Source: Roseobacter sp. MED193
GTDB lineage: Bacteria > Pseudomonadota > Alphaproteobacteria > Rhodobacterales > Rhodobacteraceae
Assembly (NCBI RefSeq): GCF_000152965.1
Contig: NZ_CH902583.1
Coordinates: 1,518,919 to 1,574,971 of the forward strand
Direction: 5' to 3'
DNA: 56,053 nucleotides
The notes under the pieces are model-generated. The model searched no databases. It was not told where the DNA came from and saw only the letters and a list, made by a program, of their open reading frames with translations. Both the position numbers and the translations under genes were made by a program. This document shows, in pieces, positions 2,781-55,595 of the stretch (its first letter is position 1; every line of letters starts with the position of its first letter).

Positions 2781-3653
2781 TCATGAAAATTTGCGGAACA
2801 AGCGCGTCGTATCAAAGAGCTCATCCAGGCGGTCATAGCGCTCTTTGGTCTTGTCCCAGCTCTCCTCCTGGGTGGCGGCGATCATTGCCTCTAGCAACAT
2901 CATGGTCGAGATATTCGAATCCCAGGCTGAGGGGATCTCAACCCAGCAATTAAAGGTATGTGCAGCAACCGCCGCGATTGGGCTGGCCCACTGATCCGTT
3001 ATCAGCACGACTTTAACACCGCGCTCTGCGGCCAATTCAGCCAGGCGCTGCAGGTTGGTCTCGTAGCGGCGCACATCAAACAACAGCAACGTGTCCCCCT
3101 CCTCCATGTCCAACACATAGTGCGGCCATGTGGCAGAAGAGGAGGTCATATGTGTGACCCGCTGGCGGATCGCCTGAAAATGGGTGAAGGCATAATCTGC
3201 CAAAGCCCGCGTTATCCGCCCCCCAACAACATAGAGCCGCCCCTCGGTCTTGGCGAGCTGACGCACGGCGGCATCAAACTGCCCCGAATCCACATTGGAA
3301 AAAGTCTGGCTGAGGTTATCCGTCACCGCCTGGGAGAACCGGTTGAGCATATGCCCTTCCGGCGCTTCGGAGGCCCAGTTTTCGCGACGTTGCGTTGGGC
3401 CAGAGACCTTGGCTTCCAGCTCTTTCAGGAGCGCCTGGTGGAACTGCGGATAGCCCTTGAATCCCAGCTTTTGCACCATCCGCGCGATGGTCGGCGTGGA
3501 GACCTCGGCATTGGCTGCGACAATAGTGATCGAGGCCAGCCCCGCTGCCGGATATTTCTCCAGCAAAGAGTTTGCAAACTTACGCTCCGACTGGGTCAAG
3601 GTCGGGTAGTGGTCCCGGATCAGCTCTCGCACTGTGAGCGGCGGTTTGGTCAA
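2781..3653 (-). CDS. MurR/RpiR family transcriptional regulator
   Basis: This 290-residue protein has an N-terminal RpiR-type helix-turn-helix of about 75 residues ('LTQSERKFA', 'VSTPTIARMVQKLGFKGY') and a C-terminal SIS domain ('LYVVGGR', 'DTLLLFDVRRYE', 'KVVLITDQ') that usually binds a phosphorylated or small-molecule effector. The start is TTG, supported by AGGAGG seven bases upstream. The gene is divergent from the hydrolase-TRAP-ligase-dehydrogenase operon beginning at 3811, with two TTCTG/CAGAA inverted repeats between them. It is therefore the likely local regulator. Whether it activates or represses cannot be read from sequence, and the effector is unknown. Confidence 0.9.
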   Translation of the reverse strand: MTKPPLTVRELIRDHYPTLTQSERKFANSLLEKYPAAGLASITIVAANAEVSTPTIARMVQKLGFKGYPQFHQALLKELEAKVSGPTQRRENWASEAPEGHMLNRFSQAVTDNLSQTFSNVDSGQFDAAVRQLAKTEGRLYVVGGRITRALADYAFTHFQAIRQRVTHMTSSSATWPHYVLDMEEGDTLLLFDVRRYETNLQRLAELAAERGVKVVLITDQWASPIAAVAAHTFNCWVEIPSAWDSNISTMMLLEAMIAATQEESWDKTKERYDRLDELFDTTRLFRKFS

Positions 3654-3721
3654 GGGGCCCCCTCCTGCGGGTGACTAAAAAATAGGCGGCAGAGCCATAG
3701 TAGGCACCATTAAAGCATGCG

Positions 3722-3787
3722 TTCTGCCAGTACAGAAAAAATCTCTTCTGAAATTATATTGACAGAATTTACCCCTCGTGAAAAGAT
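3722..3787 (+). promoter_or_regulatory. promoter with two inverted repeats (candidate RpiR operators)
   Basis: TTCTG-N6-CAGAA occurs at 3722-3737 and TTCTG-N12-CAGAA at 3746-3767. The second overlaps a -35 candidate TTGACA (3759-3764), followed after 17 bases by AAAGAT (3782-3787). The position between the divergent RpiR gene and the operon suggests regulator binding at this promoter. The -10 box is weak. Confidence 0.45.
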
Positions 3788-3810
3788 TTTTCCAAAACGG
3801 GGAGAAATGC

Positions 3811-4596
3811 ATGTCACTGAGCGATTCCAACGCTCGCTGCGAAGCTTACGAAGTGCTCAACGGTGCAGGCCGTGGGGGCGCTCTGATCCTATGCGAACAT
3901 GCCAGCCATCACATCCCGCGCCGCTATGGAGACCTGGGATTGGCCGAGGCGGATCGCAAAAGCCACGCTGTCTGGGACCCTGGTGCCCGCGCAGTGGCCC
4001 GGTCCCTGTCAGAAGCACTGGATGCCCCCTTGATCGCGTCGCGCGTGTCACGGCTGGTCTATGACTGCAACCGCCCCCCAGAGGCCGCCTCTGCGATGCC
4101 GGTAAAATCCGAGTTGATCGAAGTGCCAGGCAATATTGGCCTGCGGCCCGAACAGCGCGAAGAGCGAATCCACACGGTATATCAGCCCTTTTGCGACGCG
4201 GTTTCGCGACTGATCACAGCCCGCAAAGCCGAAGGGCTGGAGACGGCGCTCATCACCGTGCACAGCTTTACGCCCATCTATTTTGGCACCCACCGCGCAG
4301 TCGAGATAGGCATCCTGCATGACACCGACAGCCGCTTTGCTGATGCAATGTTGGATCACGTCTCCGCCCTGCCCCATCGTCAGATCGACCGGAATGAGCC
4401 CTATGGCCCCGGCGACGGTGTCACTCATAGTTTACAATATCATGGGCTAAAAAACGGGCTGGCCAATGTTATGATCGAAGTCCGCAACGATCTATTGAGC
4501 ACACAACAAGAGGAAGCCCAAATCGCGGAAGAGCTGCTGGCCCTGCTGCGTCCTGCGCTGGCAACATTGCAAGACGAAGGAGGCACCAGTGCCTAA
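3811..4596 (+). CDS. N-formylglutamate amidohydrolase family hydrolase
   Basis: This 261-residue protein starts at the ATG preceded by GGGGAGA; an upstream in-frame ATG lacks such a site. Family signatures include 'ILCEHASHHIP' (near residue 25), 'RLVYDCNRPP', 'ITVHSFTP' and 'RNEPYGPGDG', typical of the Zn-dependent FGase fold. Classical members release formate from N-formyl-L-glutamate in histidine degradation, but no hut genes are here. It is the first gene of an operon with a TRAP importer, a glutamine-synthetase-like ligase and two dehydrogenases, and overlaps the next gene by 8 bases. I infer that it hydrolyses a glutamyl-type amide made in this pathway. That substrate assignment is a hypothesis. 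Confidence 0.88.
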   Translation: MSLSDSNARCEAYEVLNGAGRGGALILCEHASHHIPRRYGDLGLAEADRKSHAVWDPGARAVARSLSEALDAPLIASRVSRLVYDCNRPPEAASAMPVKSELIEVPGNIGLRPEQREERIHTVYQPFCDAVSRLITARKAEGLETALITVHSFTPIYFGTHRAVEIGILHDTDSRFADAMLDHVSALPHRQIDRNEPYGPGDGVTHSLQYHGLKNGLANVMIEVRNDLLSTQQEEAQIAEELLALLRPALATLQDEGGTSA

Positions 4597-5185
4597 GATT
4601 ATTTTGCGCTATATTCGCGCCGTGGAGGCGATGAACCGGTTCATTGGCCGTTTTGCAATGTACCTGATCTTTGCTCTCATCGCGGTGTTACTTTGGTCCT
4701 CAGTCTCAAAGACCTTTTTCAACCCCTCGCTTTGGACCCTTGAGATGGCTCAGTTCATCATGGTCGCCTATTATATCCTGGGCGGACCCTATTCGATGCA
4801 GATGGGATCGAATGTGCGGATGGATCTGTTCTATGGGGGCTGGACCACCCGAACCAAGGCCTTCGTCGACGCCTTCACCGTGCTGTTCCTGATGGTCTAC
4901 TTGGGCATCCTGCTTTATGGCGCCGTAAGTTCGATGGCCTATAGCCTCGGCTATTTTGGTCTAGAGCCCTTCACCTTCTTTGGTGACATCATCGCCACCT
5001 TCTTTACCGAAGGGCCAAGTGCTGCCTGGAGCAAGCTTGGCTATATCGAGCGTAGCTCCACCGCCTGGCGCCCCTATCTGTGGCCGGTAAAATCCATTCT
5101 CTGCTTCGGCGTCTTTCTGATGCTGCTGCAGTGCCTAGCTGAATTGTTCCGCGATATCGGACGTCTTCGCGGAGTTGAAATCTGA
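4589..5185 (+). CDS. TRAP transporter small permease (DctQ-like)
   Basis: This 198-residue inner-membrane protein starts with GTG inside the end of the upstream gene, with AAGGAGG just upstream. It shows four hydrophobic segments, with 'FIMVAYYILGG' and 'VRMDLFYGG' typical of DctQ subunits. It is somewhat longer than a usual DctQ because of an extra loop of about 30 residues around 135-165. With the large permease and binding protein it forms a Na+-dependent high-affinity importer. The substrate is unknown. The stop codon overlaps the next start (TGATG), so translation is probably coupled. Confidence 0.92.
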   Translation: MPKIILRYIRAVEAMNRFIGRFAMYLIFALIAVLLWSSVSKTFFNPSLWTLEMAQFIMVAYYILGGPYSMQMGSNVRMDLFYGGWTTRTKAFVDAFTVLFLMVYLGILLYGAVSSMAYSLGYFGLEPFTFFGDIIATFFTEGPSAAWSKLGYIERSSTAWRPYLWPVKSILCFGVFLMLLQCLAELFRDIGRLRGVEI

Positions 5186-6687
5186 TGCCTTATGAATTGA
5201 TCGCAATCGTGATGTTTGCCGGCATGATGCTGATGCTGATGACCGGTCAACGGGTCTTTGGCGCCATTGGTTTTGTTGGCGCTGTGGCGGGCATGCTGCT
5301 TTGGGGGACTGGCGGGGTCGAGATCCCCTTTGCCGCCTCGATGAAGCTGATGAAATGGTACCCGCTACTGACGCTGCCGATGTTCATCTTTATGGGCTAT
5401 GTGCTGTCAGAATCCAAAATTGCCGATGATCTTTACCGGATGTTCCACGTTTGGATGGGACCGGTGCAGGGCGGTCTGGCGATTGGCACCATCGGGTTGA
5501 TGGTGCTGGTCTCGGCCATGAATGGTCTGTCCGTCGCAGGCATGGCCATTGGGGCCACCATCGCGCTGCCGGAACTCCTGCGTCGGGGCTATGACAAGAT
5601 CCTGGTGACCGGCACCATCCAGGCCGGGTCTTCTCTGGGCATTCTGGTACCACCCTCTGTGGTGTTAGTGCTCTATGCGATGATTGCGCGTCAGCCAGTT
5701 GGGCAACTGTGGCTGGCCGGTGTGGTGCCGGGCCTTTTGATGGCGACGATGTTCATCATCTACATCTATATCCGCGCCAAGATGCAACCTAACCTTGGCC
5801 CCGCCATGAGCCACGAAGAACTGGCTGAATATGATGAAATCAGCACCCACCCTCTGCGGTTGAACTTCATTGTGCTGGCCGGGATTGTGCTGGTTCCCTT
5901 GTTGGTCAAACTGGATGTGATCGCGCCAAAGTCCGCTATTGGCTTTGCCCTTGGTGCTGCGGTTCTGGCCTTCGCCACCCGCGCCATGCCGCTGTTCTAC
6001 CGTGATGTTTACCTGAAGGAGAAACACCGGCTGCTGTTTTCCGGTGTGCTGCCCCTGGCAATCTTTGCCACCATGATGGTGCCCTTCGTGAATGGCTGGA
6101 CCTCGCTGGTGGAAAGCTCGGCCATTGGCGCCATGACCGCCTTCATCGCCGCCGTTCTCAAGGGCCGCATGAACAAGGCGGTATTCGAAACCACCGTGCG
6201 ATCAACCCTGGGGATCTCCTGCATGTTCATGTGGATCATCCTCGCGGCCCTGGGCTTTGGTGCCATCTTTGATGGGCTGGGTGCCGTGAAAGCGATTGAG
6301 GATCTGTTCACCGCGCAGCTGGGCCTCAGCCCCTGGATGATCCTGATCCTGATGCAGCTCAGCTTTATCGTGATGGGCACCTTCCTGGATGACACTGCGA
6401 TGCTGGTCATCGTCGCACCGCTCTATGTGCCGCTGGTTGGCGCGCTTGGCTTTGACCTGATCTGGTACGGGGTGCTTTACACCATCACCACGCAGATCGC
6501 CTATATGACGCCGCCCTTTGGCTATAACCTATTCCTGATGCGCGCCATGGCGCCGCCAGAAATCGGCCTGAAAGACATCTATATCTCCATCATCCCCTTT
6601 GCCGCCGTCATGGTGGTGGCCCTGGCCCTCATCATGGCCTTCCCACAGATCGCGCTGTGGCTGCCAGATCTGGTTTATGGCCGCTGA
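5185..6687 (+). CDS. TRAP transporter large permease (DctM-like)
   Basis: This 500-residue protein has about a dozen predicted membrane spans. DctM-type features include 'LPMFIFMGYVLSES', 'GTIQAGSSLGILVPPSVVLVLY' and 'TPPFGYNLFLM', which form the ion- and substrate-translocating core. Its length is within the upper range of the family. It belongs to the same transporter as the preceding small permease and the following binding protein. A short GC hairpin follows it before the binding protein gene. Confidence 0.95.
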   Translation: MPYELIAIVMFAGMMLMLMTGQRVFGAIGFVGAVAGMLLWGTGGVEIPFAASMKLMKWYPLLTLPMFIFMGYVLSESKIADDLYRMFHVWMGPVQGGLAIGTIGLMVLVSAMNGLSVAGMAIGATIALPELLRRGYDKILVTGTIQAGSSLGILVPPSVVLVLYAMIARQPVGQLWLAGVVPGLLMATMFIIYIYIRAKMQPNLGPAMSHEELAEYDEISTHPLRLNFIVLAGIVLVPLLVKLDVIAPKSAIGFALGAAVLAFATRAMPLFYRDVYLKEKHRLLFSGVLPLAIFATMMVPFVNGWTSLVESSAIGAMTAFIAAVLKGRMNKAVFETTVRSTLGISCMFMWIILAALGFGAIFDGLGAVKAIEDLFTAQLGLSPWMILILMQLSFIVMGTFLDDTAMLVIVAPLYVPLVGALGFDLIWYGVLYTITTQIAYMTPPFGYNLFLMRAMAPPEIGLKDIYISIIPFAAVMVVALALIMAFPQIALWLPDLVYGR

Positions 6688-6713
6688 TGGAATTTCCGAA
6701 TAACCCAAGAAGA

Positions 6714-6728
6714 GCCCCGCTCGGGGGC
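6714..6728 (+). other. short intergenic stem-loop in TRAP operon
   Basis: GCCCC-gctc-(G)GGGC lies between the large permease and the binding-protein gene. There is no T-run. It may tune expression of the downstream binding protein. Confidence 0.35.
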
Positions 6729-6766
6729 CTAAGTTCACAACCGAGATCCAACAAGGAGTGAGACGA

Positions 6767-7801
6767 ATGACAACAAGACGTAAGTTTCTGCAAACCGCCG
6801 GTGTGGGGGCAATGGCCGCCCCGCTGGCGACACCCGCCCTGGCACAATCCACCATCAAATGGCGGATGCAGACCTATGCCGGCACCGCCCTGGCCGAGCA
6901 CGTGGTGAAACCCGCCATCGACATGTTCAACCAGATCGCTGGCGACCGCATGCAGATCGAGCTGTTCTACGCCGATCAGCTGGTCCCCACAGGTGAGCTG
7001 TTCCGCGCCATGCAGCGCGGCACCATCGATGCCGTGCAGTCGGATGATGACTCGATGGCATCGCCGACCGAAGTCACGGTCTTTGGCGGCTACTTCCCCT
7101 TCGGCTCGCGCTACTCACTCGACGTGCCGGTCCTGTTCAACCAGTACGGCCTGAATGAGATCTGGGACGAAGAGTATTCCAAGGTTGGCGTCAAACACAT
7201 CTCTGCCGGTGCCTGGGATCCCTGCCACTTTGCCACCAAAGACCCGATCCGCAGCCTCGAAGACCTGAAAGGCAAGCGCATCTTCACCTTCCCAACCGCG
7301 GGTCGCTTCCTCAGCCAGTTTGGCGTTGTGCCTGTGACCCTGCCTTGGGAAGACATTGAGGTCGCTCTGCAAACCGGTGAGCTTGACGGCGTTGCCTGGT
7401 CTGGCATCACCGAAGACTACACCGTTGGCTGGGCCGATGTGACCAACTACTTCCTGACCAACAATATCTCTGGTGCCTGGGCTGGTAGCTTCTTTGCCAA
7501 TCAGGGCCGCTGGAACGAGCTGCCCGAAGACCTGCAGACCCTGTTCCGCGTCTGCTGTGACCAGTCGCACTACTATCGTCAGTGGTGGTACTGGGGTGGC
7601 GAAGCCTCCCTGCGGGTCAATGGCCCCAAGATGGAGCTCACCACCATTCCCGACGCAGAATGGGCCCAGGTCGAAGGCGCTGCGGTCCAGTTCTGGGATG
7701 AAATCGCCGCCGAAAGCCCCACCAAGGCCAAGGTTGTCGAGATCTTCAAGAAGTATAATGCTGACATGCAAAAAGCCGGTCGCCCCTACCGCTACGGCTA
7801 A
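6767..7801 (+). CDS. TRAP transporter substrate-binding protein (DctP family), Tat-exported
   Basis: This 344-residue protein starts at the ATG six bases after AAGGAGTG. Residues 4-27 form a twin-arginine signal ('RRKFLQTAG' then 'ATPALAQS'), so it is probably exported folded, like TakP-type TRAP binding proteins. The mature part has DctP features: 'GTIDAVQSDDD', 'LEDLKGKRIF', 'GRFLSQFG' (a position where family members carry the carboxylate-binding arginine), and 'LQTGELDGVAWSG'. If that arginine is functional, the ligand carries a carboxylate, which must be squared with any amine-substrate model for the operon. A strong hairpin follows the stop codon. Confidence 0.94.
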   Translation: MTTRRKFLQTAGVGAMAAPLATPALAQSTIKWRMQTYAGTALAEHVVKPAIDMFNQIAGDRMQIELFYADQLVPTGELFRAMQRGTIDAVQSDDDSMASPTEVTVFGGYFPFGSRYSLDVPVLFNQYGLNEIWDEEYSKVGVKHISAGAWDPCHFATKDPIRSLEDLKGKRIFTFPTAGRFLSQFGVVPVTLPWEDIEVALQTGELDGVAWSGITEDYTVGWADVTNYFLTNNISGAWAGSFFANQGRWNELPEDLQTLFRVCCDQSHYYRQWWYWGGEASLRVNGPKMELTTIPDAEWAQVEGAAVQFWDEIAAESPTKAKVVEIFKKYNADMQKAGRPYRYG

Positions 7802-7812
7802 ACCAATCTGCT

Positions 7813-7831
7813 CCGGCGCGGTCTGCGCCGG
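7813..7831 (+). other. stem-loop after TRAP binding-protein gene
   Basis: A perfect 7-bp stem, CCGGCGC-ggtct-GCGCCGG, lies 11 bases past the stop codon. There is no T-run, so it is more likely an mRNA-stabilising or attenuating element than a full terminator. Comparable hairpins follow phnD and the TctC-type gene in this window. Confidence 0.5.
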
Positions 7832-7860
7832 GGCACCCTATCTGAACAGGAAAATGCCCC

Positions 7861-9222
7861 ATGACTGGTGTTCTGACTTTTGACGATCTGAAAGCCCAAG
7901 TTGCCGCAGGCGACGTTGATACCGTGCTGGTCTGCCTTGTGGACATGCAGGGCCGCCTGATGGGCAAGCGTTTTCACGCCGGGCATTTTGTTGCTGGCGC
8001 CTATGAGGAAACCCATTGCTGCAACTACCTGCTGGCCACCGACCTTGAGATGGCGACGCCCGATGGCTTTGCCTCGACCAGCTGGGAGTCGGGCTATGGC
8101 GACTATGTGATGAAGCCGGACCTAACCACTCTGCGCCCCCTGCCTTGGCTCGAAGGCACGGTGATGGTGCTCTGTGATGTGCTGGATCATCACAGCCATG
8201 AAGAGGTCCCCCACAGCCCCCGCGCCATTCTGAAGAAACAGATCCGCCGTCTGGACGCGCTTGGCTTTGACGCCATGACAGCGACCGAGCTTGAGTTTTT
8301 CCTGTTTGAAAAAGGCTTTGACGAGATCCGTAAATCGGACTTCCGTGATCTACAGCCCATTTCCGGCTACAATGAAGACTACCACATCCTGCAGACCACC
8401 AAGGAAGAGCATGTGATGCGCCCACTGCGCAATCACCTGTGGAACGCGGGCATTCCGGTGGAATGCACCAAGGGTGAGGCTGAGGCCGGCCAGGAAGAGC
8501 TGAACATCAAGTATGGCCGCGCTCAGGATACCGCCGATTTCCACACCATCGCCAAACATGCCACCAAAGAGATCGCCTGGCAGCAGGGCCACGCCGTAAC
8601 CTTCCTGCCCAAATGGCATCACGACAAGGTTGGCTCATCCTCTCACGTGCATCAGTCGCTGTGGAAAGACGGCAAACCTGCTTTTTACGACGGCGATGAC
8701 GCGCTTGGCATGTCAAGCCTGATGAAGAACTACATGGCCGGGCTGCTGAAATATGCGCCTGATTACACCTACTTCATGGCGCCCTATATCAACAGCTACA
8801 AGCGCTTCATGAAGGGCACCTTTGCCCCAACCCGCATCATCTGGTCGGTGGACAACCGCACTGCCGGTTACCGCCTTTGCGGTGTTGGCAGCAAGTCGAT
8901 CCGGGTGGAATGCCGTATTCCGGGGTCGGATATGAATCCCTACCTGGCCATGGCCGCCATGCTGGCCGCCGGCATTGCAGGTATCGAAGAAGGGCTGGAG
9001 CTGCAGCCCCCTGCGAGCGGTGATGTTTATCAGGGCAACAGTGGCATGATCCCTGAAACTCTGCGGGAGGCCCGTCTGAGCCTGAAGGGCTCTGAAATGC
9101 TGCGCGCTGCCATGGGAGACGATGTGGTGGATCACTACACCCGCGCAGCCGAAGTTGAGATCGAAGATTTTGACCGCGTGGTCACCGACTATGAAATTGC
9201 CCGAGGGTTTGAGCGCGCCTGA
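7861..9222 (+). CDS. glutamine synthetase family protein (gamma-glutamyl-amine ligase-like)
   Basis: This 453-residue protein has the GS catalytic domain: 'ATELEFFLF' and 'GEAEAGQEELN' (metal and ATP ligands), 'GSSSHVHQSL' (ATP loop), 'PYINSYKRF', and 'RVECRIPGSDMNPYLAMA'. The 'DGSS' ammonia-site motif of true glutamine synthetases is not seen in the N-terminal domain. This pattern is shared with PuuA-like gamma-glutamylpolyamine and gamma-glutamyl-amide synthetases, which join glutamate to an amine using ATP. Flanking genes (hydrolase, importer, ALDH, Fe-ADH) fit a gamma-glutamylated intermediate. The amine is not identifiable from sequence. It is probably not the housekeeping glutamine synthetase. 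Confidence 0.88.
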   Translation: MTGVLTFDDLKAQVAAGDVDTVLVCLVDMQGRLMGKRFHAGHFVAGAYEETHCCNYLLATDLEMATPDGFASTSWESGYGDYVMKPDLTTLRPLPWLEGTVMVLCDVLDHHSHEEVPHSPRAILKKQIRRLDALGFDAMTATELEFFLFEKGFDEIRKSDFRDLQPISGYNEDYHILQTTKEEHVMRPLRNHLWNAGIPVECTKGEAEAGQEELNIKYGRAQDTADFHTIAKHATKEIAWQQGHAVTFLPKWHHDKVGSSSHVHQSLWKDGKPAFYDGDDALGMSSLMKNYMAGLLKYAPDYTYFMAPYINSYKRFMKGTFAPTRIIWSVDNRTAGYRLCGVGSKSIRVECRIPGSDMNPYLAMAAMLAAGIAGIEEGLELQPPASGDVYQGNSGMIPETLREARLSLKGSEMLRAAMGDDVVDHYTRAAEVEIEDFDRVVTDYEIARGFERA

Positions 9223-9231
9223 CGGCGCGCA

Positions 9232-9279
9232 GCCTCCGGCGGAAATATTTTTGGAAAGATGAAAGGGGGCGCCCCTTTC
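9232..9279 (+). repeat. interspersed intergenic repeat, copy 1
   Basis: The core GCCTCCGGCGGAAATATTTT continues to TGGAAAGATGA (9232-9262). A hairpin, GAAAGGGG-gcg-CCCCTTTC (9261-9279), overlaps its end. The same core, with variations, occurs at 10686-10713 and 48642-48672 in the opposite orientation. All three copies lie next to a gene end. I associate this element with Roseobacter-group genomes from general familiarity. Function unknown. Confidence 0.7.
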
Positions 9280-9298
9280 AAACGAGATGAGGAAGACC

Positions 9299-10681
9299 AT
9301 GGGCCAGACCCTGAATTGTATCTCTCCGATAGACGGATCCGTCTATGCCAGTCGCGAAACGCTCAGCCGGGATGAGGGCTTTGCTACTGCCAGCGCCGCC
9401 CGAGCCGCGCAAAAGGCCTGGGCCGCGCGCCCGCTGCAAGAACGCATTGATTTGGTGATGGCAGGCGTCGCCGCTGTCGGCGCCATGAATGATGAAATTG
9501 TGCCAGAATTGGCCCATATGATGGGGCGCCCGGTGCGCTACGGCGGCGAGTTCGGCGGCTTCAACGAGCGCAGCTCCTATATGGCCCAAATCGCTGAGAC
9601 AGCGCTGGCGGATATCGAAGTCGGCGAAGATGAAGACTTCAAACGCTATATCAAGCGGATCCCGCATGGGGTGGTCTTTATCGTTGCTCCCTGGAACTAC
9701 CCCTACATGACCGCGGTGAATACACTGGCCCCTGCTCTGATTGCAGGCAACACCGTGGTGTTGAAACATGCAACACAAACACTGCTGGTCGGCGAACGCA
9801 TCGCAGCGGCCTTTCACTCTGCTGGTGTTCCAGCTGATGTGTTCCAGAATGTATTTTTGGATCACGACACCACCTCGGCACTGATCGCAGACCGCGCCTT
9901 TGACTTCGTCAATTTTACTGGTTCGGTTGGCGGCGGACAGGCTATGGAGCGCGCCGCAGCAGGCACCTTCACCGGTGTCGGAACTGAGCTCGGCGGCAAG
10001 GATCCTGGCTATGTCATGGAAGACGCCGATCTGGATGCGGCCGTAGACACTTTGATCGACGGCGCCATGTTCAATGCCGGTCAGTGCTGCTGCGGTATCG
10101 AGCGTATCTATGTCCATGAAAGCCTCTATGATGATTTTGTCGCAAAGGCTGTGGAGATCGTCAAAACCTACAAACTGGGCAACCCGCTAGACGCCGACAC
10201 AACCATGGGCCCCATGGCCAATGTGCGTTTTGCAGCCGAAGTCCGCGCCCAGATCGATGAGGCCGTTGCCGCTGGCGCCACTGCCCATATCGACACCATG
10301 GAAGCAGATGACGGCGGTGCTTACCTGACACCACAGATCCTGACCGATGTGACCCACGAGATGCGGGTGATGCGCGATGAGAGCTTTGGCCCTGTTGTAG
10401 GCATAATGAAGGTCTCCTCGGATGAAGAGGCGCTTGCCCTGATGAATGACAGCGAGTTTGGTCTCACCGCCTCGCTCTGGACACGCGATCTTGACCGTGC
10501 CGTCCGCATTGGTGATGAGATCGAGACCGGCACCGTCTTCATGAACCGCGCAGACTATCTGGATCCGGGTCTGTGCTGGACCGGCTGCAAGAACACAGGC
10601 CGCGGTGGCGGTCTGTCGGTGATCGGGTATCAGAACCTCACCCGCCCCAAGAGCTACCACCTGAAAAAGCAGACAAGCTAA
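9299..10681 (+). CDS. aldehyde dehydrogenase family protein
   Basis: This 460-residue protein starts at the ATG behind GAGGAAG; an in-frame ATG four codons earlier is less well placed. It is an NAD(P)+-dependent ALDH with 'VAPWNYPYMTAVNTLAPAL' (cofactor cleft), 'NFTGSVGGG' (Rossmann glycine loop), 'GTELGGKDPGYV' (general-base glutamate) and 'NAGQCCCGIERIYVHE' (catalytic cysteine). It lies between the GS-like ligase and the iron alcohol dehydrogenase. The inferred role is oxidation of the aldehyde produced by the latter to a carboxylate. Confidence 0.93.
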   Translation: MGQTLNCISPIDGSVYASRETLSRDEGFATASAARAAQKAWAARPLQERIDLVMAGVAAVGAMNDEIVPELAHMMGRPVRYGGEFGGFNERSSYMAQIAETALADIEVGEDEDFKRYIKRIPHGVVFIVAPWNYPYMTAVNTLAPALIAGNTVVLKHATQTLLVGERIAAAFHSAGVPADVFQNVFLDHDTTSALIADRAFDFVNFTGSVGGGQAMERAAAGTFTGVGTELGGKDPGYVMEDADLDAAVDTLIDGAMFNAGQCCCGIERIYVHESLYDDFVAKAVEIVKTYKLGNPLDADTTMGPMANVRFAAEVRAQIDEAVAAGATAHIDTMEADDGGAYLTPQILTDVTHEMRVMRDESFGPVVGIMKVSSDEEALALMNDSEFGLTASLWTRDLDRAVRIGDEIETGTVFMNRADYLDPGLCWTGCKNTGRGGGLSVIGYQNLTRPKSYHLKKQTS

Positions 10682-10685
10682 CATA

Positions 10686-10746
10686 TCATCTTTCTAGAAA
10701 TATTCCGGGGGAGCTTGCCGTAAGGCAAGCGGGGGCAGCGCCCCCT
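10686..10746 (-). repeat. interspersed intergenic repeat, copy 2, with two hairpins
   Basis: TCATCTTTCTAGAAATATTC at 10686 onward is the reverse-oriented variant of the copy at 9232. It is followed by the perfect stem GCTTGCC-gtaa-GGCAAGC (10713-10730) and GGGGGC-agc-GCCCCC (10731-10745). The element fills the gap between the ALDH and alcohol dehydrogenase genes. Confidence 0.68.
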
Positions 10747-10773
10747 CCCCGGTCTCAATACAGGAACACGCAG

Positions 10774-11919
10774 ATGTCTCTCGTTGGAAACTGGTCCTAT
10801 CCGACCGCAATCAAATTCGGCGCAGGCCGGATCAAAGAACTGGGCGATGCCTGTGCCGCCGCCGGTATCAAGAAACCACTGCTGGTCACTGACAAGGGCC
10901 TGGCAGATCTGCCCGTCACCCAAGGCACCCTCGACATAATGGAGGCCGCAGGCCTGGGTCGTGGTATGTTCTTTGAGGTCGATCCCAACCCAAATGAAAA
11001 AAACCTCGAAGCAGGTGTCGAAGCCTATAAGGCCGGCGGCCATGACGGTGTGATCGCCTTTGGCGGCGGCTCGGGCCTAGATCTGGGCAAGATGGTTGCC
11101 TTCATGTGCGGCCAAACCCGCCCAGTCTGGGATTTTGAAGACATCGGCGATTGGTGGACCCGCGCCGATGCTGATGCCATTGCACCCATCATCGCCGTGC
11201 CCACAACGGCCGGCACCGGTTCCGAAGTGGGCCGCGCCTCTGTGATCACCGACAGCGTCAGCCATGTCAAAAAGATCATTTTCCACCCCAAAGTGCTGCC
11301 TGCCGTAGTGATCTGTGATCCTGAGCTCACCGTTGGCATGCCACAATTCATCACCGCCGGCACCGGCCTTGACGCCTTTGCACATTGCGTCGAGGCTTTT
11401 TCCTCGCCCCATTACCATCCGATGAGCCAGGGCATCGCGCTGGAAGGCATGCGTCTGGTCAAGGACTACCTGCCGCGCGCCTATGCCGACGGCACCGATA
11501 TCGAAGCCCGCGCACAGATGATGTCGGCGGCGGCCATGGGGGCCACGGGTTTTCAAAAGGGCCTTGGTGCCATCCACGCCATGAGCCACCCCATTGGAGC
11601 CCATTTCAACACCCACCACGGAACCACCAATGCCGTTTGTATGCCAGCGGTGCTCGCCTTCAACGCGTCCGCAATTGCCGAACGGTTCAACATGGCCGCA
11701 GCTTATCTCGGCATTGAAGGCGGTTTTGAAGGCTTCTGCGCCTATGTGCAGGAGTTGAACGACAGCCTTGGCATCCCCCGCAAACTCTCCGATCTGGGTG
11801 TGACCGAAGCCTCGATCCCCGATCTGGTCAAAGGGGCGATCATTGACCCCTCTTGCGGTGGCAACCCGATCGAGCTGACCGAGGCCAATCTAACCCAGCT
11901 GTTTAAAGCCGCGTTGTAG
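10774..11919 (+). CDS. iron-containing alcohol dehydrogenase
   Basis: This 381-residue group III (Fe-dependent) alcohol dehydrogenase starts at the ATG preceded by AGGAA; reading-frame extension upstream crosses the repeat and is not coding. Motifs are 'FGGGSGLDLGKMVA' (NAD+ binding), 'PTTAGTGSEVG', and metal ligands in 'DAFAHCVEAF' and 'GAIHAMSHPIGAHFNTHHG'. It is the last gene of the operon begun at 3811. The inferred reaction is oxidation of an alcohol, possibly glutamylated, to the aldehyde used by the upstream ALDH. Pairing of a gamma-glutamyl ligase with ALDH and ADH recalls the isopropylamine/alaninol pathway of Pseudomonas. The link is inference. Confidence 0.92.
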   Translation: MSLVGNWSYPTAIKFGAGRIKELGDACAAAGIKKPLLVTDKGLADLPVTQGTLDIMEAAGLGRGMFFEVDPNPNEKNLEAGVEAYKAGGHDGVIAFGGGSGLDLGKMVAFMCGQTRPVWDFEDIGDWWTRADADAIAPIIAVPTTAGTGSEVGRASVITDSVSHVKKIIFHPKVLPAVVICDPELTVGMPQFITAGTGLDAFAHCVEAFSSPHYHPMSQGIALEGMRLVKDYLPRAYADGTDIEARAQMMSAAAMGATGFQKGLGAIHAMSHPIGAHFNTHHGTTNAVCMPAVLAFNASAIAERFNMAAAYLGIEGGFEGFCAYVQELNDSLGIPRKLSDLGVTEASIPDLVKGAIIDPSCGGNPIELTEANLTQLFKAAL

Positions 11920-54239: not shown

Positions 54240-55595
54240 ATGAAAGATTCCAATTTCCTAAAGGAACATAACGCCAAATCGCTTTGGCACCCTATGGCAC
54301 ATCCTGCCGACAGCCAGGCCAATCCGCCTGCCATTATCACCGCAGCCTCAGGCGTGCGGATCACGGATCTGGATGGGCATGAGGTGATTGATGCGGTTGG
54401 CGGTCTCTGGAACGTCAATCTCGGGTTCTCCTGCCAGCCCGTCAAAGACGCCATTGCCGCTCAACTGGACGTGCTGCCCTATTACTCCACTTTTCGCGGC
54501 ACCAGTAATGATCAGGTGATCCAGCTGGCCGAGATGCTGCGCGATTTCTTTGCCCCCGACGGGCTAACCCGGGCCTTTTTCACCTCTGGCGGTTCGGACT
54601 CGGTGGAAACCGCCCTGCGCCTGGCCCGGCAATACCACAAGGTGCGCGGCGAAGCGGGTCGCACCAAGTTCCTCAGCCTGAAAAAGGGCTATCACGGCAC
54701 CCATATGGGCGGGGCTTCGGTCAATGGCAATGCCAATTTCCGCACCCAGTATGAACCGCTGTTGCCTGGCTGCCACCATATTCCGGCCCCCTACACCTAT
54801 CGCAATCCTTTTAATGAAAGCGACCCCGAACGGCTGGCGCAGCTTTGCCTGCAGGCCCTGGAAGATGAGATCGCCTTTCAGGGGGCGGGCACCATTGCGG
54901 CCTTTATCATGGAGCCGATCCTTGGCGCTGGCGGAGTGATCCCGCCGCATGAAAGCTTCATGCCGGGTGTGCGCGATATCTGCACCAAGTACGGCATCCT
55001 GTTGATCGCGGATGAGGTGATCACAGCCTTTGGCCGCACCGGCTCTTGGTCCGGATCACGGCACTGGGGGGTTCAGCCTGATTTCATGTGCACCGCCAAG
55101 GCAATCACCAATGGCTATTTCCCCTTTGGCGCAGTGATGATTGCGGATGCCGTCGCCGAAGTGTTCGAGCAGGATGAAACCGGGCGGGCTGCCATTGGTC
55201 ACGGCTATACCTATTCCGGCCATCCGGTTGGCGCCGCGGCCGCTCTGGCCTGTTTGGAAGAAACCCTGCGCCTGGATGTGCCGACAAACGCGGCGGCCAG
55301 GGGAAAAGAGCTACATCAGGGGCTGCTGGCGCTACAGGAAAAACACACGTTGATTGGCGATGTGCGCGGTGGCCATGGGTTGATGTGCGCGATGGAGCTG
55401 GTTGCAGATCGCGACAGCAAGGCAGCCGCAGACAAAAAGACCACGGCTGTCCTGCAAGAGGTCACCTATCAAAACGGCGCCATGGTGCGCGTCTCCGGCC
55501 CCAATATTATTCTGTCGCCGCCGCTGGTTCTCAGCTCGCAGGACGTCCAGGGCATCCTCTCTGCCCTGGACGCCGGTTTCTCGGCTGCAAGCTAG
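54240..55595 (+). CDS. class III pyridoxal-phosphate aminotransferase (omega-type)
   Basis: This 451-residue protein has 'SLWHPMAHPADSQ' at the N-terminus, 'FFTSGGSDSVETALRLARQYH' (PLP phosphate loop), 'KKGYHGTHMGGASV', 'LLIADEVITAFGRTG' (the Asp that contacts the PLP nitrogen) and the Schiff-base lysine in 'CTAKAITNGYFPFG'. The fold and motifs fit omega-amino acid:pyruvate aminotransferases and relatives that turn a terminal amine into an aldehyde. Placed opposite a TTT importer and an ALDH, it suggests amine or omega-amino acid catabolism. It may be cotranscribed with the IclR gene. Confidence 0.93.
   Translation: MKDSNFLKEHNAKSLWHPMAHPADSQANPPAIITAASGVRITDLDGHEVIDAVGGLWNVNLGFSCQPVKDAIAAQLDVLPYYSTFRGTSNDQVIQLAEMLRDFFAPDGLTRAFFTSGGSDSVETALRLARQYHKVRGEAGRTKFLSLKKGYHGTHMGGASVNGNANFRTQYEPLLPGCHHIPAPYTYRNPFNESDPERLAQLCLQALEDEIAFQGAGTIAAFIMEPILGAGGVIPPHESFMPGVRDICTKYGILLIADEVITAFGRTGSWSGSRHWGVQPDFMCTAKAITNGYFPFGAVMIADAVAEVFEQDETGRAAIGHGYTYSGHPVGAAAALACLEETLRLDVPTNAAARGKELHQGLLALQEKHTLIGDVRGGHGLMCAMELVADRDSKAAADKKTTAVLQEVTYQNGAMVRVSGPNIILSPPLVLSSQDVQGILSALDAGFSAAS

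Follow-up and report, generated by a model that had tools for sequence, protein, structure and literature searches.

Which compound is handled by an operon that combines a hydrolase of the N-formylglutamate amidohydrolase (FGase) family with a TRAP importer, a glutamine synthetase (GS)-like ligase, an aldehyde dehydrogenase (ALDH) and an iron-containing alcohol dehydrogenase (Fe-ADH), and has such a combination been described before? These genes, together with a divergent RpiR-family regulator, had been named in an earlier note on a stretch of 56,053 nucleotides from Roseobacter sp. MED193, which is referred to here as the window; all of them are present, and Pfam backs every family. The locus is very probably the roseobacter operon for ethanolamine gamma-glutamylation (Eto), because its gene kinds and gene order are those published for strain MED193, its solute-binding protein (EtoX) is close to structure 4uab, its ligase is closest to structure 5dm3, 44 of 65 related loci are collinear with it, and the genome has no EutB match and a separate HutG. 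The activities of the window proteins are assigned by comparison.

According to the open reading frame list of the window, the operon spans exactly 3811-11919 and consists of seven forward-strand genes, and the RpiR gene lies outside this span in divergent orientation (Table 1). The successive junctions of the forward genes comprise overlaps of 8 and 1 bases followed by gaps of 79, 59, 76 and 92 bases, and this tight spacing fits a single operon. Beyond the regulator gene, two adjacent small open reading frames on the minus strand (1814-2224 and 2282-2677) appear alike by eye (LNRILA/LSRILA, MRAAE, and the ends GAWLLSQ/GTWLLSQ) and are a possible tandem duplicate.

Table 1. Features of the Eto locus in the window, with the basis of each assignment.
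Feature	Coordinates	Strand	Basis
RpiR-family regulator	2781..3653	-	HTH_6 8.1e-16 and SIS 9.1e-21 (Pfam); counterpart of MED193_10021 by position; tblastn map
Divergent intergenic region	3654..3810		ATTGACAG at 3758-3765
FGase-family hydrolase, proposed gamma-glutamylglycine amidohydrolase (GGAH)	3811..4596	+	PF05013 3e-39 (Pfam)
TRAP small permease DctQ (EtoV)	4589..5185	+	PF04290 6.1e-14; published gene order; tblastn map
TRAP large permease DctM (EtoW)	5185..6687	+	PF06808 9.6e-61; published gene order; tblastn map
TRAP solute-binding protein DctP (EtoX), ethanolamine-binding type by similarity	6767..7801	+	DctP Pfam 1.8e-21; 4uab/4xf5 match; Phe173, Glu216
GS-like ligase, proposed ethanolamine gamma-glutamylase (ETAGA)	7861..9222	+	PF00120 Gln-synt_C 5.5e-94; 5dm3 match; without DGSS
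ALDH, proposed gamma-glutamylacetaldehyde dehydrogenase (GAADDH)	9299..10681	+	PF00171 Aldedh 1.6e-116; published order; tblastn map
Fe-ADH, proposed gamma-glutamylethanolamide dehydrogenase (GETADH)	10774..11919	+	PF00465 Fe-ADH 5.2e-47 and PF25137; published order; tblastn map

The operon MED193_10021-10056 of Phaeobacter sp. MED193 has been published as an ethanolamine gamma-glutamylation operon, in the order RpiR, gamma-glutamylglycine amidohydrolase, EtoV, EtoW, EtoX, ethanolamine gamma-glutamylase, gamma-glutamylacetaldehydeamide dehydrogenase and gamma-glutamylethanolamide dehydrogenase (PMC10132767). The window holds the same eight kinds of genes in the same order, that is, an RpiR gene beside FGase-DctQ-DctM-DctP-GS-ALDH-FeADH, and comparison with the published description revealed no difference. 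In MED193, phosphorylethanolamine raises five of the operon proteins, the figure that depicts the pathways is captioned 'Predicted', and the genes are called closely related to ones shown to be functional in Chromohalobacter salexigens and Agrobacterium tumefaciens C58, with reference to Vetting et al. (PMC10132767). Moreover, a 2022 review tabulates PF00120, PF00465, PF00171 and PF05013 for C. salexigens (PMC9397018). The belief of the earlier note that no described pathway has this exact set was therefore mistaken, since the same gene kinds and order had already been published for MED193; the window operon is real, well conserved and already described.

The proposed route would start with the import of ethanolamine by EtoX together with EtoV and EtoW, after which the GS-like ligase would couple it to glutamate in an ATP-dependent reaction that yields gamma-glutamylethanolamide. 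The Fe-ADH would then convert the alcohol of this product to the aldehyde, the ALDH would oxidise the aldehyde to gamma-glutamylglycine, and the FGase-family amidohydrolase would release glutamate and glycine, with RpiR as the likely local regulator of the operon. The mechanism put forward in the earlier note, consisting of import, glutamylation, oxidation by Fe-ADH and then ALDH, and hydrolysis by the FGase-type enzyme, is well supported by comparison; what has changed is that the range of substrates is now reduced to ethanolamine, with glycine and glutamate as the products. For relatives of the window proteins, published work has demonstrated the binding of ethanolamine by EtoX, protein induction on phosphorylethanolamine, and the ligase reaction of GlnA4.

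The substrate assignment draws first on the binding protein, of which the nearest solved structure is 4uab/4xf5 (E 3.6e-196), with 272 of 318 aligned residues identical to 4uab. In the alignments with 4yzz and 4yic, its Phe173 occupies the place of an Arg that, going by the family pattern, we take to be the carboxylate-selecting one (Arg-147 equivalent). 4UAB is Csal_0678 of C. salexigens with ethanolamine bound, in which Glu220 serves as the acidic platform residue (PMC12410723), and Csal_0678 is described as a protein without the Arg by which most TRAP binding proteins select carboxylates, Phe being the commonest replacement of this Arg (PMC4646407). The window DctP thus combines closeness to 4UAB with the lack of a carboxylate Arg, as expected for the EtoX type. 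Among the 59 loci with a DctP match (from the 80 loci that were the best 80 of 581), residue 173 is Phe in 51 and Tyr in 8, and residue 216 is Glu in all 59. Glu216 is the sole Glu of the window protein in the displayed stretch of the 4uab alignment, and it would pair with Glu220 only under an assumed 3-residue numbering offset.

The same chemistry could also serve another small amino alcohol, such as alaninol, 1-amino-2-propanol or 3-aminopropanol, and would then yield a different amino acid. This is improbable in view of the identity of the window EtoX to a protein crystallised with ethanolamine and of the affinity of MED193 EtoX for ethanolamine (Kd 7.9 +/- 1.9 uM; PMC10132767), even though amine specificity varies among GS-like ligases, which include polyamine and ethanolamine types (PMC9397018). 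The four named analogues that MED193 EtoX did not bind in the published account were all phosphorylated compounds, so that the specificity described there does not speak against non-phosphorylated amino alcohols (PMC10132767).

The nearest solved structure to the ligase is 5dm3 (9.1e-245), deposited as an L-glutamine synthetase and presumably Csal_0679, followed by 11zs (1e-167). The ligase matched four NCBIfam models, including those for type I and type III glutamine synthetase and for gamma-glutamylputrescine synthetase, and fell short of the cut-off in every case; on TIGR00653 it reached 241.6 against a cut-off of 429.15. DGSS is the ammonia-site motif of glutamine synthetase. The genome has eight GS-family matches, the window ligase counted in, and among these eight aligned proteins the motif was found only in L006 (DGSSIAGW); the window ligase reads DGFASTSW at this position, which bears out the earlier remark that it has no obvious DGSS motif. 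Neither of the features expected for a glutamine synthetase, DGSS and a score above an NCBIfam cut-off, was thus found in the window ligase, and it is proposed to glutamylate ethanolamine.

For the hydrolase, no NCBIfam match was obtained at 1e-3, and hence none to the HutG model TIGR02017, and the only solved relative at E <=0.01 was 2odf (Atu2144, 5.2e-80). The genome has five FGase-family matches including that of the window, and a separate HutG is encoded elsewhere: L002, which adjoins hutH, scores 365.5 on TIGR02017 (cut-off 278.75) and shares with the window FGase a weak local match of 36 residues. A role of the window FGase as the HutG N-formylglutamate deformylase was therefore rejected, in view of the lack of a TIGR02017 match and the HutG beside HutH at the other locus. 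A plain nitrogen-assimilation or histidine operon, in which the ligase would make glutamine and the FGase would act as HutG on N-formylglutamate, is hardly credible given these scores and the absence from the ligase of the DGSS that L006 possesses, despite the fact that both Pfam families are named for those activities. The window FGase is predicted to cleave gamma-glutamylglycine; FGase is the sole hydrolase family that Pfam detected in the eight proteins, with no PuuD- or IpuF-type hydrolase among them. A comparable role has been proposed for SCO1615 of Streptomyces coelicolor as a gamma-glutamylglycine amidohydrolase, the text of that paper placing the protein in the formylglutamate amidohydrolase family and the legend of its Fig. 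2 giving orf5 as a glutamine amidotransferase (PMC6529630). Hydrolysis of gamma-glutamylglycine by an FGase-family enzyme is a prediction in that paper as well, and is an enzymological gap worth closing.

The two oxidoreductases were assigned their substrates from context, since neither reached an NCBIfam equivalog cut-off: the ALDH was below the cut-off in all matches listed (25 of 44 matches) and the Fe-ADH in 15 of 15. Six of the related loci (L037, L043, L059, L065, L069 and L076) carry an Fe-ADH gene after the ligase gene, and tblastn found no ALDH in them; the aldehyde step of these loci may be encoded elsewhere.

Conservation of the gene set was assessed with the ligase as query. The best 80 of 581 confirmed matches were taken as loci, which biases them towards close relatives, and the first-listed matches among them bear mostly Rhodobacteraceae names, so that the host is of the roseobacter type, as for the published operon. 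Of the 80 loci, 65 had an upstream flank of 5 kb or more and a downstream flank of 2.9 kb or more around the ligase gene, and 15 short-flanked loci were left out; a gene was counted as present at a tblastn identity of at least 35% and a distance of no more than 9 kb from the ligase gene. All eight genes were found in the same order in 44 of the 65 loci, so that the co-occurrence of the parts, for which the earlier note had suggested a gene-neighbourhood search, was confirmed by running it. Chromohalobacter israelensis (L087) and Thalassospira australica (L086) belong to this group; the 44 do not represent independent events, as the 80 loci are close relatives. FGase and DctP were present in 55 and 49 of the 65 loci, respectively, and the other 21 lacked one or more of the eight genes nearby (FGase in 10, DctP in 16, ALDH in 7 and Fe-ADH in 3). 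The eight-gene arrangement is not due to chance. In one locus (L064) the ligase gene alone of the eight was found.

Glutamylation followed by oxidation and hydrolysis is also the principle of the Puu putrescine pathway and of the Pseudomonas isopropylamine/alaninol pathway, which employ PuuD- and IpuF-type hydrolases, respectively. These were the known pathways cited in the earlier note; they share this logic with the window operon but differ from it in their amines and in their hydrolases, that of the window belonging to the FGase family, and the nearest known pathway is instead the Eto ethanolamine pathway. Likeness to C. salexigens extends from the binding protein and the best match of the ligase to the four enzyme families in common; the difference is that this organism is a gammaproteobacterium, although its relative C. 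israelensis carries all eight genes in the window order. In the GlnA4 pathway of S. coelicolor (SCO1610-1615), a GS-like ligase likewise acts on ethanolamine, GlnA4 being a gamma-glutamylethanolamide synthetase, and two oxidations and an FGase-family hydrolase are proposed to follow (PMC6529630). That pathway differs, as described there, by having no TRAP importer (a permease occurs in some species and is absent from S. coelicolor), by a short-chain dehydrogenase (Fig. 2 legend) and by the regulator EpuRI (PMC6529630).

The Eut ethanolamine ammonia-lyase route was also considered and rejected: EutB had no match in the genome, and the same search over 14 control genomes matched Escherichia coli alone. 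An Eto operon would allow marine bacteria to use the ethanolamine of phospholipid headgroups without the Eut lyase, and in published ocean data about 5 to 10% of bacteria carry etoX (PMC10132767). The window is a further carrier of the operon.

The region between the rpiR and hydrolase genes contains ATTGACAG, of which an exact copy was found in 17 of 56 related intergenic regions, the window counted in and the chance rate not being computed; this element is probably part of the operon promoter. A TTCTG-N(4-8)-CAGAA palindrome was considered as operator and rejected, because besides the window it was seen in just one region (2 of 56 with the window). Dyads with 4-base arms occurred in 13 of the 56 regions, whereas none of 30 mononucleotide shuffles gave more than 4; no operator is claimed from them, since the shuffles take no account of the kinship among the loci.

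Some of the related loci suggest a variation on the uptake step. In 12 of the 80 loci (best 80 of 581), namely L014, L017, L023, L027, L028, L029, L037, L043, L044, L052, L064 and L079, tblastn with the L052 proteins located a phosphatase gene of the inositol-monophosphatase family, a Na/Pi-cotransporter family gene, or both, no more than about 4.5 kb upstream of the ligase gene; the phosphatase occurs in 9 of these loci and the transporter in 7. Loci L054, L063 and L066 were left out, their phosphatase or transporter matches lying at least 8 kb from the ligase gene. For the transporter, Pfam bore out the assignment in L014, L029 and L052, and for the phosphatase in L029, L037, L052 and L079; the remaining loci were assigned by tblastn. 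L014, L017, L029 and L052 carry both genes and gave no tblastn match to the TRAP genes; the Na/Pi gene of L023 and L044 is located between those for DctP and the ligase, and a DeoR regulator accompanies the phosphatase or Na/Pi genes in several of the 12. These arrangements raise the rather doubtful possibility of a second form of the pathway, in which phosphoethanolamine would be taken up whole, dephosphorylated in the cytoplasm and then glutamylated. In the window genome, a Na/Pi homologue (61% identical) adjoins a DeoR gene about 275 kb from the operon, and the best phosphatase homologue is 38% identical; the occurrence of the DeoR-Na/Pi pair away from the pathway counts against a fixed link. 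No description of a phosphoethanolamine-uptake form was recognised from titles and abstract openings among the open-access papers listed, and this form may be the sole lead from the locus that is new. The window operon itself is the ordinary TRAP form.

Finally, further genes of the same families were observed in the genome. A second pair of GS-like and FGase genes lies on contig C3 (L098:1314-10370, at about 109.3-118.4 kb of G000:C3), where the GS-like gene is 33% identical to the window ligase and the FGase 37% identical to that of the window. This cluster further includes genes for an ALDH and a class III aminotransferase, for an ABC binding protein of the peptide type, for a histone-deacetylase-family protein and for a regulator that appears AraC-like by eye, and it adjoins a VirB11-like gene that scores just below its model cut-off (249.4 versus 249.95). 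From its gene content it looks like another glutamylation route, for which an acetylated polyamine as substrate is only a guess. At the right end of the window, an open reading frame that reads as aminotransferase-like (54240-55595) is followed, about 252 bases past the window end, by a GS-family gene (G000:C1:1575223-1576182), and the two are possibly part of an amine catabolic cluster.
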